A stretch of DNA of 42,232 bases, from contig NZ_JAUZEE010000018.1 in NCBI RefSeq assembly GCF_030705305.1, positions 1 to 42,232 on the forward strand. The letters are read 5' to 3'. The translations under genes were made by a program, and so were the position numbers. The notes under the pieces are model-generated. The model was not told the origin of the DNA. It saw only the letters and a program-made list of their open reading frames with translations, and did no database searches. Numbering within the stretch: the stretch's first letter is position 1; each line of letters starts with the position of its first letter. The stretch is from Leptothrix discophora (GTDB lineage: Bacteria > Pseudomonadota > Gammaproteobacteria > Burkholderiales > Burkholderiaceae_C). Positions 28,809-38,944 of this stretch are shown here, in pieces.

Positions 28809-31163
28809 TCACTTGGGCAGCGTGTTCCAGTGGCGCAGCAGCGTGCGCAGCGCCTCGGGCTTGTTCTGCGGCGCGGCACGGCCGGCCTGGTCGGCGGTGT
28901 TGTTGCCGTGGCAGGAGGCGCACACGCGCACCTCGCCGGGCTGGAAGGTCACCCAGACGCGTTCGCGGACGATGGCCGTGCCGGTCGTGTCGGTGGTCTG
29001 CCAGGTCAGCGCACGGCGGGCCGGCACGAAGGCGGCGGTCGAGCCGTCGGCGGCGATCTTCACGCTGCCGACCGGGCCGGAGGTGTTGGGCACGTTCTTG
29101 CCCGGTGCGTCGTGCATCGGCTGGGCGATCGGACGGCGACCGCTGCGGTTGGCGTAGCCGCGCACCTGGTCGGCCTGGAAGATCTGGTAGTGCGAGACGT
29201 CGTAGACCTTCCCGGCATTGCCCACCGTCCTGACGCCGCCGGGCACCTGCAGGTTGTACGGCTGCTGCTTGTCGGCGCGGTCGCGCGAGGTCTGGTTGCG
29301 CGTCACGATCAGCGCCAGGTTGTTGGTCTTCATCCAGTTGCGCAGGGCGGTCTCGTCGACGCCTTCCTCGGCCAGGATGGTCTTCTCGGGCGTCGGGATG
29401 GCCGGGGCGCTGCGGCTGGCCGGGCGCAGGCGGGCGACCACCTCGACCGGCTCCAGTTCCCAGAGCTTGCCGGTGTAGGACCGCAGCGCGTCCGGGTCCC
29501 ACCAGCTGACGGTCTTGACGATGCCGCCGGTGACCGACGTGCCGGCGGTGTAGCGCGCAGCCGTCGCGTTCCAGGCCAGCTGCTTGAGCGTGAACTCGAC
29601 GCTGGTGGGCGTGCCCAGCGTGGTGCTCGGCGTGTGCACCGCCACCATCTGGCCGTCGCTCAGCGGCAGCGGGTTGCGGAAGCGGCCGCCGGCGTTGGCC
29701 GGATCGGTCACGTCGACCACCGCCATCTGCTCGGGATTCATCCCGACATAGCCCTGGAAACGCACGATCTGGTTCGCGCCGAGGTCGGCGAATTCACGTC
29801 CGTAGATGGCGTAGAAGGTGCCCGGGTTGAGCGGATCCTCGCGCAGCTGGAACAGGCCGCCGTCGCCACGGATGAGCTTGCGGTTGAGCGTGAAACCAGC
29901 GCTGGCGTAGTCCAGCAGCGAACTGTCGGTACTGAAGGAGCGCGTGAAGCTGCCGAGCTGGAATTCATGCCGGCCGACGTGGTTGAGGGTTTCCTCGTCG
30001 GTGCCGTCCTCGTTGACCTGCCACGGCGTGAAGATGTTGTAGGTATGTCCGTTGACCGTGCCGTAGGCGCTGGTGCTGGCCGCGCGGGTTTCCGGGAAGT
30101 ATTCGGCCGGGCTCGCCAGCCTGGCGGCGCTGGCCGATTCGTCGGCCATGTTGTAGTGGCCGTAGGTGCCGGCGTCGGCCTGCTGGTCGCGCTGCAGGTG
30201 GTCCCAGCGGGTGTAGATGACGCGGCCGGCGCTGTCGATGAAGGGCGAGAAGGCGCCGCTGACCGCGTGGTTGACCAGGCGCAGGTCACCGGTGGCCGGG
30301 GCCAGGCTCCAGATGCCGGTGTTGGTCGCCGTGCTCTCGTACTCGTCGAGCTGCGGGTAAAGGTGGGCCTCGCCGCTGCGCGGGCGGTCGGAGGTGAACA
30401 GCACGCGGTCGTCGGTGCCATACAGCGGCGAGACGTTGTTGTAGGTCGCCGGCTGGTTGGCGACCTTGGTGATGCGGACCCCCTCGCCCTTGCCCAGGCC
30501 GCTGACCTCGTAGATCTGCCAGTGGGTGCTCACGCTCACGTACTGCCGCGTCGGTGCGCCGATCACCATGCTGAAGAGCGCCTTGGTGCCGCTCCAGTGC
30601 ACCGTCGGTTCGCGCACCGCGATCGCGTTGGCGCCCTGCAGGCCGGCCATGCCGTAGCCGGCTTCCTGGGTCAGGTTGCGCAGCGTGCCGTCCGGGTAGC
30701 GGATCATCAGATCGCCGCCGCGCGGGCTCAGCTGGATCGAGGACAGGTGGTTGGCGAAGGTCCCCACGCGCGACGAGAAGTCCGACGAGGTCGGCACCTG
30801 GGTCACGAACAGGATCGGGTTCTTGACCGTCGACAGCGTGCTGCCGGGGATGGGCGCCGGCGCTGGGGCCGGGGCCGGGGCTGGTGTGGGAGCCGGTGCG
30901 GGTGCGGGTGCAGGGGCCGGGGCCGGAGCGGGAGCGGGAGCGGGAGCGGGAGCCGGAGCCGGTGCCGGTGCCGGTGCACGGCGACGCCGCAGCGCCTCGG
31001 CGTCCGGCGTGCCGTCGACGGTCGAGGCGGTCGCATCGGTCGTGCCGGTGTCGGCCGAGCCGCCGCCGCAGCCACTTAGCAGCGCGGCCGACGAGGCCAG
31101 GGCTGCGAGGGCCCAGAGGGCGTGCAGCTGGCGCAGCCGGGCGTTCGTGGGGGTCGGATTCAT
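28809..31163 (-). CDS. Large lipoprotein with Ala-Pro tract and C-terminal CxxCH heme motif (HzsA-related)
   Basis: A 784-aa protein starts at the ATG at 31163 with a signal sequence and lipobox ALLSGC (Cys32). A spacer with about 22 X-Pro dipeptides follows, then a region with beta-propeller-like repeats (PLYGTDDRVLFTSDRPR, FIDSAGRVIYTRWDHLQRD). The C-terminal part carries a single c-type heme site, CASCHGNN (Cys748, Cys751, His752 approximately). This layout is that of proteins annotated as HzsA-related, after the alpha subunit of hydrazine synthase, but no hydrazine genes are present. The role is unknown, perhaps an outer-membrane-anchored redox or binding protein. It is flanked by a strong terminator and a 320-bp upstream gap. 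Confidence 0.8.
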   Translation of the reverse strand: MNPTPTNARLRQLHALWALAALASSAALLSGCGGGSADTGTTDATASTVDGTPDAEALRRRRAPAPAPAPAPAPAPAPAPAPAPAPAPAPAPTPAPAPAPAPAPIPGSTLSTVKNPILFVTQVPTSSDFSSRVGTFANHLSSIQLSPRGGDLMIRYPDGTLRNLTQEAGYGMAGLQGANAIAVREPTVHWSGTKALFSMVIGAPTRQYVSVSTHWQIYEVSGLGKGEGVRITKVANQPATYNNVSPLYGTDDRVLFTSDRPRSGEAHLYPQLDEYESTATNTGIWSLAPATGDLRLVNHAVSGAFSPFIDSAGRVIYTRWDHLQRDQQADAGTYGHYNMADESASAARLASPAEYFPETRAASTSAYGTVNGHTYNIFTPWQVNEDGTDEETLNHVGRHEFQLGSFTRSFSTDSSLLDYASAGFTLNRKLIRGDGGLFQLREDPLNPGTFYAIYGREFADLGANQIVRFQGYVGMNPEQMAVVDVTDPANAGGRFRNPLPLSDGQMVAVHTPSTTLGTPTSVEFTLKQLAWNATAARYTAGTSVTGGIVKTVSWWDPDALRSYTGKLWELEPVEVVARLRPASRSAPAIPTPEKTILAEEGVDETALRNWMKTNNLALIVTRNQTSRDRADKQQPYNLQVPGGVRTVGNAGKVYDVSHYQIFQADQVRGYANRSGRRPIAQPMHDAPGKNVPNTSGPVGSVKIAADGSTAAFVPARRALTWQTTDTTGTAIVRERVWVTFQPGEVRVCASCHGNNTADQAGRAAPQNKPEALRTLLRHWNTLPK
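30847..30978. repeat. Degenerate hexanucleotide repeat, 22 units, encoding the Ala-Pro tract
   Basis: Units of the form GGNGCN follow each other without gap, including four identical GGAGCG units and one GGTGTG unit that gives Thr. The array encodes X-Pro dipeptides in the lipoprotein. As six is a multiple of three, expansion or loss keeps the frame and alters only spacer length. Confidence 0.9.
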
Positions 31164-31484
31164 CGGGTATCCCTGTGTGATTCGTGGCGCGCTGCCGGAT
31201 CGCCGCGCAGCGCTGTGCATGAACCTCACTATCGACCGGCCGCTCGCCTCGGCCGTAACGAAAGGAATCCCCCCGGCATCCCTTACCAATACTTGCAGCT
31301 TCGAAAGAATTGCAAATACCGGCGGGTGCCTGGGTGATGAATTCGTGGAATCGTTCGCAGTTCTGCGGGGTTTTCGCGCCGAATCTGTCGCAGGAGTTTG
31401 CCGGCTTGCTCCGGAACGTGTTGCCGGTGGTTTGCCGCGCCGCCTCGCCGATACAGCCGGGAAACGACTCGGGTTTCGACCGGC
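31164..31484. other. 320-bp non-coding region of low G+C
   Basis: Between the lipoprotein gene and gcr there is no credible gene. Short open frames on both strands lack ribosome sites and have codon use unlike the neighbours. The stretch is visibly richer in A/T than the rest of the window. It holds a candidate promoter and, next to the gcr stop, a short CCGG...CCGG dyad. I see nothing else in it. Confidence 0.6.
31286..31315 (-). promoter_or_regulatory. Candidate promoter for the lipoprotein gene
   Basis: On the minus strand TTGCAA (31315-31310) and TATTGG (31291-31286) are 18 bp apart, giving a leader of about 115 nt. The spacer contains the palindrome TTCGAA. Confidence 0.3.
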
Positions 31485-34780: not shown

Positions 34781-35460
34781 GCCGCACCGTCCCGACGCTG
34801 CAGGGCCGGCCGATCGAGGCGGCCATCGTCGACCTCGACGGGACGATGGTCGACACGCAGGGCGACTTCGTCGTCGCGCTGGGCCGCATGCTGGCCGAAC
34901 TGGGCCTGCCGGGCGTGGACCGCGACTTCGTCTCGCGCACGGTCGGCAAGGGCAGCGAACACCTGATCCGCCGCACGCTGGCGCAGGTCGGCGCGGCCGA
35001 TGTCGATGCGCTCTACGAGCCGGCCTGGGCGGCCTACCAGCGGCACTACCTCGCCATCAATGGCGCGCATTCGGACGTCTATCCCGGCGTCGTCGAGGGC
35101 CTCGCGAAGCTGCGCGCGCTCGGCCTGCCGCTGGCCTGCCTGACCAACAAGCCCGGCGACTTCGCCCGGCCGCTGCTGGCGATCAAGGGGCTGGACGGCC
35201 ACTTCGTGCAGGTCTTCAGCGGCGATGCCTTCGCGCGCAAGAAGCCCGATCCGCTGCCGCTGATCGAGACCTGCCGGGCGCTCGGCAGCGTGCCGTCGCG
35301 CACGCTGATGCTGGGCGATTCGCGCAACGATGCCGAGGCCGCGCACGCCGCCGGCTGCCCGGTCGTGCTGATGCGCTACGGCTACAACCACGGCGAACCG
35401 ATCGAGGCCGTGCCCGCGCTGGCCCACCTTGACCGGCTCGACGCGCTGGCCTTCGACTAG
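34777..35460 (+). CDS. gph: Phosphoglycolate phosphatase
   Basis: A 227-aa HAD-superfamily hydrolase that removes 2-phosphoglycolate. Motif I is [10 protein letters not shown] with the nucleophile Asp, motif II Thr in CLTNKP, motif III Lys in ARKKPDP and motif IV GDSRND. A helical cap domain lies between motif I and II. The GTG start overlaps the rpe stop (GTGA). The stop codon is followed after 11 bp by a short ORF that appears to be a trp leader peptide, so the promoter of that leader would lie at the gph end. Confidence 0.95.
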
Positions 35461-35471
35461 ACTTTGCGACC

Positions 35472-35561
35472 ATGTTCCGCTCTCGGAAACGGACCCTCGT
35501 CCGTCACCTCATCACGCTGCCCGGGTCGCATGACCGGGGAGCCTGGCCCTGGCGTCGCTGA
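35472..35561 (+). CDS. trpL: Candidate trp leader peptide (29 aa, two Trp codons near the end)
   Basis: ATG 35472 opens a 29-codon frame that ends in Ala-Trp-Pro-Trp-Arg-Arg and TGA. The Trp codons are at 35544-35546 and 35550-35552. It lies about 200 bp in front of trpE with no other gene between. Tandem or near-tandem Trp codons just before a stop are the mark of trp attenuator leaders in enterobacteria and rhizobia. Two exclusive pairings follow (35574-35580 with 35601-35607, and 35599-35607 with 35630-35638). The N-terminal part is Arg-rich. No clear ribosome site precedes the ATG; a weak TAGACT box (35458) would make the message nearly leaderless. Function is inferred from position and pattern only. 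Confidence 0.6.
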   Translation: MFRSRKRTLVRHLITLPGSHDRGAWPWRR

Positions 35562-35638
35562 GCCGCGCCGGTCGCGTGGCCGCCTGCTGAAGCGCAGCGC
35601 GCCACGCCGATCCGCTTCGAGCCACCCACGCGTGGCGC
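35549..35638 (+). promoter_or_regulatory. Candidate trp attenuator with alternative pairings
   Basis: Segment 1 (35549-35554, over the second Trp codon) pairs with 35566-35571 (6 bp, one G-U). Segment 2, GCGTGGC (35574-35580), pairs exactly with segment 3, GCCACGC (35601-35607). Segment 3, extended as GCGCCACGC (35599-35607), pairs exactly with segment 4, GCGTGGCGC (35630-35638). Pairings 2:3 and 3:4 exclude each other. No T run follows segment 4, so the end effect could be Rho-dependent termination or control of trpE translation. Confidence 0.5.
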
Positions 35639-35764
35639 CGAGACCGGATCCGCACCCTCGGCGGTGCATCCCCACCCGCATCAACCGACCGTCCGGACCG
35701 TCCGCGTCGCCAGGCCCCAGGGGCCGCGATGCGCGACCCGGCGGTGCGTCCCAGGAGCCGACAC

Positions 35765-37252
<1,488 letters not shown>

Positions 37253-37861: not shown

Positions 37862-38944
37862 ATGACCACCATCGACCTGCGCAGCGACACCGTCACCCGC
37901 CCGACCCCGGCGATGCGCGAGGCGATGGCCCGTGCAAGCGTCGGCGACGACGTCTTCGGCGACGACCCCAGCGTCAACGCGCTGCAGGAACGCATGGCCG
38001 CGCTGGCCGGCTTCGAGGCCGCGCTGTTCATGCCCTCGGGCACGCAGAGCAACTTCTGCGCGCTGCTGGCGCATTGCCAGCGCGGCGACGAGTACCTGGT
38101 TGGCCAGCTCGCCCACACCTACCGCTACGAGGGCGGTGGCGCTGCGGTGCTGGGCAGCATCCAGCCGCAGCCGCTGACGCAGGACGCGCAGGGTCGGATG
38201 TCGCTGGCCGACATCGCCGCAGCGATCAAGCCCGACGACGCCCACTTCGCCCGCAGCCGCCTGCTGTGCCTGGAGAACACCTGGAACGGCCACGTCATGC
38301 CGGCCGGCTACCTGGCCGAGGCGACCGCGCTGGCGCGCTCGCGTGGCCTGGCCTGCCACCTGGACGGCGCGCGGGTCTTCAACGCGGCGGCGGCCGACGC
38401 CGGGCCGGGTGGCGACATCACGGCCGCGCTGCGCGGGATCACGCGGCACTTCGACAGCGTCTCGATCTGCTGCTCGAAGGGTCTGGGCGCGCCGATCGGC
38501 TCGGTGCTGTGCGGCAGCCGCGAGCTGATCGGGCGGGCCCACCGCATCCGCAAGATGGCCGGCGGCGGCCTGCGCCAGGCCGGCCTGCTGGCCGCCGCGA
38601 TCGACCATGCGCTGGACCACCACGTCGAGCGCCTGCACGACGACCACCGGCTGGCGCGCCGGCTGGCCGACGGGCTGGCCGGCATCGACGGCCTGACGGT
38701 GCGCAGTGCCGCCACCAACATCGTTTTCGTCGACGTGGCCGATGGCCGCGGGCCGGCGCTGCTGGCCTGGCTGGCCGAGCGCCACATCCTGGCCACCGGC
38801 CTGATCGGCCTGCGCTTCGTCACCCACCTGGACGTCGACGAAGCCGGCATCGACGCCACCGTCGCGGCGGTGCGGTCCTTCTTCATCGCCGGTGCGAACG
38901 CCGAAACCGACTGCGCCGAGGCGCGCCCCGCTTCCCCGTATTGA
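37862..38944 (+). CDS. ltaE: Low-specificity L-threonine aldolase
   Basis: The 360-aa PLP-dependent enzyme cleaves threonine or allo-threonine to glycine and acetaldehyde. It begins [20 protein letters not shown] and has [49 protein letters not shown] and the Schiff-base lysine in [16 protein letters not shown]. It is inserted between trpG and trpD with only 13 and 23 bp of spacing, so it should be transcribed with the trp genes, an unusual neighbour as it has no role in tryptophan synthesis. A role in glycine/serine supply (serine is the TrpB substrate) is speculation. Confidence 0.95.

Follow-up and report, generated by a model that had tools for sequence, protein, structure and literature searches.

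In the trpL leader of Escherichia coli, cognate codons in the leader peptide and mutually exclusive foldings are placed upstream of trpE. In translational attenuation of the ermC type, the position of the ribosome on the leader peptide sets access to the ribosome-binding site (RBS) with a drug as the signal, and in E. coli tnaC a Rho-dependent leader-peptide control is induced by free tryptophan. For Sinorhizobium meliloti, excerpts from one report describe a trpL transcript that begins at the trpL AUG and is leaderless, a trp unit that is not under transcription repression by tryptophan, an end of transcription between trpL and trpE(G) when tryptophan is available, and action of rnTrpL and peTrpL in trans (PMC7298713). 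According to excerpts from a regulon survey, TrpR occurs in gammaproteobacteria only (PMC5343134), and excerpts from a survey of Rfam motifs that included Burkholderia and Ralstonia state that amino acid attenuators may have arisen in gammaproteobacteria with few transfers (PMC3766115). Neither these excerpts nor those from two further sources (PMC4833913, PMC2965389) describe a betaproteobacterial trp leader. The first-pass annotation of the locus studied here held that nothing had been described in this lineage, which agrees with the open-licence literature that we searched; large result sets were covered in part, most subscription journals lie outside that literature, and an earlier mention of a betaproteobacterial trp leader may exist.

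We analyzed a stretch of 42,232 nucleotides from Leptothrix discophora (NZ_JAUZEE010000018.1; the whole stretch is called the window below). In it, trpE, encoding anthranilate synthase component I (35765..37252, + strand, GTG start), is preceded on the same strand by a 29-codon ORF, trpL (35472..35561), with the predicted leader peptide MFRSRKRTLVRHLITLPGSHDRGAWPWRR. The first-pass annotation had described this ORF as having its sole two Trp codons four and two residues before the end, and this can be read directly from the sequence: they encode residues 25 and 27 and begin at 35544 and 35550, within the stretch TGG CCC TGG (35544..35552, + strand) that we presume to be the sensor. A -10 box, TAGACT (35458..35463, + strand), overlaps the stop codon of gph and is the presumed trpL-trpE promoter. 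From the trpL stop codon to trpE runs a C-rich structured spacer of 203 nt (35562..35764, + strand), which includes the trpE Shine-Dalgarno (SD) sequence AGGAG (35753..35757, + strand), 7 nt before the GTG at 35765. Folding of 35472-35790 gave a z of -2.35, and the architecture downstream of trpL is poorly conserved. The next gene after trpE is trpG. Between trpG and trpD, the trp cluster contains a further gene (37862-38944) that, from its sequence, is presumably an L-threonine aldolase gene, and elsewhere in the window a lipoprotein-like gene on the minus strand (28809-31289) encodes an extended Ala-Pro repeat towards the N-terminus of its product.

The TrpR family was over the cut-off in none of 40 relatives, with one match below the cut-off in genome G003 (the control was positive in E. 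coli and Bacillus subtilis), and TRAP was not found in the window's own genome (control positive in B. subtilis). The Rfam family Trp_leader (RF00513) had no match at the gathering score in the window, in which only tRNAs were found, or in 9 relatives, and in 35400-35850 relaxing the E-value limit to 10 still left Rfam without a match. The coverage of T-boxes was that of these Rfam scans, which took in the window and 9 loci.

A comparison of the Trp codons in related genomes, as the first-pass annotation had suggested, found them conserved. Within the genus, every one of the 13 genomes examined has the trpL ORF with its Trp codons, and of 139 loci fetched from the same family 129 have, ahead of trpE, a leader ORF that starts with ATG and encodes Trp-x-Trp. 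These loci were picked through trpE with the leader ignored and are a subset of the genomes with a trpE match; trpE matched in 60 of 60 genomes searched, the window's own among them. Because W-x-W was the leader-finding rule, TGG at both sites in 129 of 129 leaders is by construction, and the choice of ATG among leader candidates favoured those with TAnnnT upstream. Ten loci were without an ATG-started leader, or nine if L148 is counted, a locus with the same core in frame but no ATG at the expected place; TGGnnnTGGCG was not found in the remaining nine. The peptides typically end in DRGAWPWR followed by RR, RKP or other residues, and across the family leaders their N-terminal half and extreme end vary widely. 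The pattern CGGGGNGCNTGGCCNTGGCG (20 bases, 17 of them fixed) was found in 224 of 299 family genomes, mostly as a single copy; the reversed pattern, used as a control, was absent from the matches listed for these 299 genomes.

The -10 box reads TACACT in 102, TAAACT in 14 and TAGACT in 8 of the 129 family leaders. It stands 6-11 nt before the trpL ATG in 215 of 217 leaders, and both the box and this spacing are partly by construction since TAnnnT was favoured in the choice of ATG. The TGC before TACACT is not by construction: among 127 leaders aligned on the box, T occurs in 90% and G in 98% at the first two of these positions, and the window has TAGACT without the TG. There was no -35 signal (7 of 127 leaders versus 10 of 127 at a control spacing), an absence that is likewise not by construction. 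Only 2 of 129 trpL ORFs have an SD motif ahead of the start codon, versus 76 of 129 trpE genes. Because the -10 box lies near the ATG and an SD motif is almost absent, the trpL mRNA appears to be leaderless or nearly so, and trpL is probably translated from such an mRNA.

The nucleotide core around the Trp codons, CGGGGAGCCTGGCCCTGGCG, favours codons that are less frequent in trpE genes. Its Arg codon is CGG or CGA in 120 of 120 cases versus 12% in 54 trpE genes, and its Gly codon is GGA or GGG in 126 of 126 versus 11%, with GGA alone in 115 versus 1.5%; the Pro codon is CCC or CCT in 120 of 120 versus 40% in trpE genes, which is not by construction. The sequences are related, and the tiny p-values of these comparisons are not to be taken at face value. 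The core includes the rare codons CGG-GGA, and the usage of Arg, Gly and Pro codons reflects selection on the RNA.

Two features of the core fit such RNA-level selection. One is a possible hairpin, P1 (35534..35552, + strand), in which CCGGGG (35534-35539) pairs with CCCTGG (35547-35552), so that the first Trp codon lies in the loop and the second in the 3' arm. All six pairs are possible in 120 of 129 leaders; one pair is altered on both sides, from G-C to A-U, in 3 leaders, and another changes from G-U to A-U in 8. The other is an SD-like stretch within trpL, GGGGAG (35536..35541, + strand), 2 bases 5' of the first Trp codon. The energy of its duplex with the anti-SD is -7.1 kcal/mol in the 129 leaders versus -2.9 in synonymous recodings, for which the codon shares of Ala, Gln and Glu were guessed, and -6.0 for the trpE SD region. 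The purine run is present in all 16 sequence variants of the site, even those with changed amino acids: leaders in which Arg-Gly is replaced by Gln-Gly or Arg-Glu keep it (CAGGGGGC, CGGGAGGC), and the Arg-Glu ones lose one hairpin pair. A second possible hairpin (35549..35571, + strand) joins CTGGCG (35549-35554) to CGCCGG (35566-35571) with the stop codon in the loop and excludes P1. Visual inspection of the genus alignment brought it out, and aligned leaders from a subgroup with 37 members show it in the form CTGGC-GNAA-GCC(A/T)G.

We then asked how closely the core is tied to trpE in 84,980 species genomes, one per species, using TACACT, ATGTTC and the core as the pattern with free spacing and no requirement for a reading frame. 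At least 119 stretches matched. Among the 119 matches listed, trpE was directly downstream in 114, the contig end was too near in 5, and in none was trpE missing; the ORF was in frame in 114 of 114 of the matches listed, though the spacings were only 48, 51 and 60 nt. The 80 matches listed by name came mostly from Acidovorax, Comamonas, Hydrogenophaga, Rubrivivax, Roseateles, Ideonella, Rhodoferax, Polaromonas, Ramlibacter and alike, or from MAGs, with one MAG labelled Methylotenera and one Gammaproteobacteria among them. The TrpE nearest to that of the window among the matches listed was from MAG L212 (90.5%), followed by MAG L211 (83.0%) and Ideonella benzenivorans (80.0%), and TrpE of Rubrivivax gelatinosus shared 79.6%. 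When the core pattern was searched without its promoter part, 17 viral contigs (L315-L331) also matched, which may be host flanks or chance.

In other families of the order, a short Trp-rich ORF preceded trpE in 51 of 83 loci from 44 families. The rule called for an ATG start, at most 45 residues, two close Trp and a position within 330 nt 5' of trpE, and L061 was left out. The reverse strand gave 3 of 83, and 20 rounds of shuffling gave a mean of 4.65 and a maximum of 8; part of the 51 ORFs is surely chance. Many of these leaders end in W-R-W-R-R. Together with the conserved Trp codons in the genus and family and the position of 114 of the 119 listed matches before trpE, these ORFs support the proposal of the first-pass annotation that a trp leader peptide gene lies in front of trpE.

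Among the short leaders of other families, 19 of 22 with W-Arg-W use CGA for the Arg between the two Trp, a codon absent from five trpE genes compared with those leaders. The resulting TGG-CGA-TGG creates an ATG across both Trp codons, and the ORF starting there often reaches the trpE start (L039, L042, L046, L348, L351, L354, L356, L358, L364, L372 and others), which may be chance or coupling. Two loci of family f8, L036 and L335, have leaders with four Trp, that of L036 being EAWLWRRWQSWTN. By eye, L036 also shows a terminator-like hairpin with a T run, and some relatives may for this reason use a classical outlet.

Given that the unit is real, we consider control of the trpE RBS the likeliest outlet, with about an even chance of being correct. 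A strong hairpin around the trpE SD was found in 54 of 213 leaders (4 of 217 without an SD having been dropped) versus a mean of 25 and a maximum of 36 in 500 rounds with swapped flanks, so about half of these hairpins are expected from swapped flanks. The SD lies in the loop and the arms covary (GAGCU/GGCUC, GGGCC/GGCCC), and a comparable hairpin was present at the SD of trpG in 2 of 92 cases. One leader segment is able to pair with the stop-codon region as well as with the RBS, and this dual pairing was better than with swapped stop-codon regions in 142 of 216 leaders (p = 1e-6) and better than with a swapped RBS in 121 of 216 (p = 0.011), after 26 near-duplicates among 243 leaders and one too-short leader had been dropped. 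The middle of the leader paired with the RBS alone did no better than swapped sequences (p = 0.58). In a scan of own versus swapped sequences over 149 pairs of scanning windows, the best three were a hairpin just after the stop codon (z -4.5), a hairpin just before trpE (z -3.0) and the 3' side of the first hairpin with the RBS (z -2.5). The p-values of the RBS analyses are uncorrected across several analyses, and the sequences are related.

Folding models of RBS accessibility did not distinguish a ribosome at the second Trp codon from one at the stop codon, with 46 of 129 leaders up and 41 down (p = 0.47). A separate analysis dropped 4 of 129 leaders that had no SD. In 32 short leaders of other families, hand-picked from the 51, the RBS was freed to the same extent whether the ribosome stood on the Trp codons or had reached the stop codon (0.51 and 0.51 versus 0.37). 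Masking the core left the RBS slightly freer than masking other stretches (p = 0.02) but not freer than masking a shuffled core (p = 0.35). As to mutually exclusive foldings, P1 and the possible hairpin that spans the stop codon exclude each other; the dual-pairing test was weakly positive and the accessibility models were not supportive.

Two specific pairings with the RBS were considered and rejected. Pairing of the core with the trpE RBS as a switch had no general support in the duplex scan, and masking did not confirm it. A positional profile did show a small excess of about 1 kcal/mol for the core against the RBS over shuffled windows, with z -4.7 for one arm and -4.0 for the other, but the make-up of SD regions could explain it. 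When the 3' arm of the first hairpin was set against the RBS, 92 leaders showed no effect (own 10.50, swapped 10.41); 37 of 129 leaders had been dropped because they lack a good hairpin at that place. For the 32 leaders of the Arg-Lys subgroup the same pairing was weak, with 15 of 300 swaps reaching it, and the control with the 5' arm was negative.

Rho-dependent attenuation is a possible but less likely reading. After release of the ribosome from trpL, the C-rich spacer would load Rho, and transcription would stop before trpE. Stalling on the Trp codons would let the ribosome prevent termination directly or by refolding. The base composition of the spacers is consistent with this, as indirect evidence. 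In the window, without the last 15 nt, C makes up 0.44 and G 0.34 of the spacer, and across leaders the spacers average 0.391 C and 0.306 G with more C than G in 199 of 215 (of 217 spacers, 2 were dropped as short), versus 0.327 C, 0.304 G and 57 of 97 in other 5' gaps (p = 1e-13). The control gaps came from the loci matching the species-wide pattern, with crude ORF calling; the G content of the spacers is as in these gaps, and only C is raised. The lack of a conserved intrinsic terminator would also suit Rho: none was found in the window by a terminator scan, and among 62 leaders 42 had no candidate by a loose rule and 20 had candidates at differing places. However, the spacers seem to be structured, since visual inspection suggests covarying hairpins in them, and in other families 24 of the 32 short leaders have no more than 60 nt between the stop codon and trpE. 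Because so short a stretch leaves too little room, we judge a usual Rho site before trpE unlikely in the short leaders. Provided that the unit is real, we tentatively rank Rho as the second likeliest outlet, and the RBS and Rho may also act in sequence.

It is improbable that a trans-acting RNA or a functional peptide is what the core hairpin and the Trp codons are for, whether this replaces cis control or adds to it. Conservation of the core goes well past what the codons need, and excerpts describing S. meliloti provide a precedent in rnTrpL and peTrpL, which act in trans (PMC7298713). However, the peptide is highly variable in its N-terminal half and at its end, and the element lies before trpE in all 114 judgeable cases among the matches listed.

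The first-pass annotation had drawn a switch in 35574..35638 (+ strand), in which segment 2 (35574-35580, GCGTGGC) and segment 4 (35630-35638, GCGTGGCGC) compete for segment 3 (35599-35607, GCGCCACGC), and had suggested Rho or translation of trpE as its outlet. Read as classical attenuation, 2:3 would be the antiterminator and 3:4 the terminator. The segments do pair perfectly in the window, and a triple of 9 and 7 bp arose in only 5 of 1000 dinucleotide shuffles of the window leader. However, just 1 of the 129 family leaders, that of the window itself, has such a triple. An 8/7 triple occurred in 2 of 129 leaders, with 12 of 1000 shuffles matching it. When the requirement was loosened to 7/6, 13 of 129 leaders qualified, which is close to what shuffling gives (158 of 1000). 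The leader of the closest relative, L004, whose TrpE is 98% identical to that of the window, has no 9/7, 8/7 or 7/6 triple. Because the triple is rare in shuffles but confined to 1 of 129 leaders and absent from L004, it is unusual in the window yet no conserved element. The first-pass annotation was right that a U tract is missing, as the terminator scan of the window agreed, and the proposed switch between 2:3 and 3:4 could not be upheld; we regard classical attenuation of this form as very improbable. That trpL is not regulatory at all, being a chance ORF or a relic, is scarcely credible, as the conservation, the in-frame ORFs and the codon bias speak strongly against it.

Taken together, the comparative evidence suggests, with good confidence, that trpL-trpE is a tryptophan-responsive unit under ribosome-mediated leader-peptide control. 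The trp leader-peptide element is very probably true, and its tryptophan sensor part is well supported. As in leader-peptide attenuators, a short ORF with cognate codons, presumably translated, lies directly before a biosynthetic gene, and the intrinsic terminator that would form the outlet was not seen in the window or in most of the leaders scanned. We propose that transcription would start from the -10 promoter at or beside the trpL AUG and that a ribosome would translate trpL and, when charged tRNA-Trp is scarce, wait at the Trp-Pro-Trp codons, where the SD-like GGGGAG just upstream may help to hold it. Such a stalled ribosome, unlike one at the nearby stop codon, would change the folding of the leader RNA so that trpE is expressed, and ample tryptophan would shut trpE down. 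A fuller version of this proposal is speculative: trpL would be leaderless and carry a built-in ribosome brake, the internal GGGGAG conserved at the RNA level 2 bases before Trp-Pro-Trp; the position of the ribosome would control trpE without an intrinsic terminator; and the element, inherited from a trp leader already present in the ancestor of the betaproteobacterial order, would take the place of TrpR as the main tryptophan control.

If trpE is preceded by a Trp leader peptide in many families of the order, this would explain how tryptophan is sensed there. With its constrained 20 bases, an SD-like run before the Trp codons and a probably leaderless ORF, trpL would be a simple test bed for the tuning of a sensor ribosome by an internal SD, and trpL-trpE one for attenuation that works without a terminator.

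Several features of this locus recur in the known systems. As in the ermC type, the position of the ribosome would set access to a downstream RBS, although the models gave no difference between Trp and stop positions here, and the signal would be starvation for the cognate codons rather than a drug. Like tnaC, the locus has a leader peptide, here with a C-rich spacer and no intrinsic terminator found; unlike tnaC, the expected signal is scarce charged tRNA-Trp, and the use of Rho is only proposed. With trpL of E. coli and other Gammaproteobacteria (RF00513) it shares cognate codons in the leader and trpE downstream, and exclusive foldings are expected here as well, but it differs in having no Rfam match, no U-tract terminator in the window, no SD for trpL and no TrpR over the cut-off in 40 relatives. 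It resembles trpL-trpE(G) of S. meliloti and other Alphaproteobacteria in that a short ORF whose Trp codons stand close to its end immediately precedes trpE, and the position of the -10 box and the scarcity of SD motifs would fit a start at the AUG as in the leaderless S. meliloti trpL. It is set apart from that system by the absence of an intrinsic terminator among our findings, by its W-P-W motif (W-R-W in other families) and by the strong constraint on the nucleotide core CGGGGAGCCTGGCCCTGGCG.
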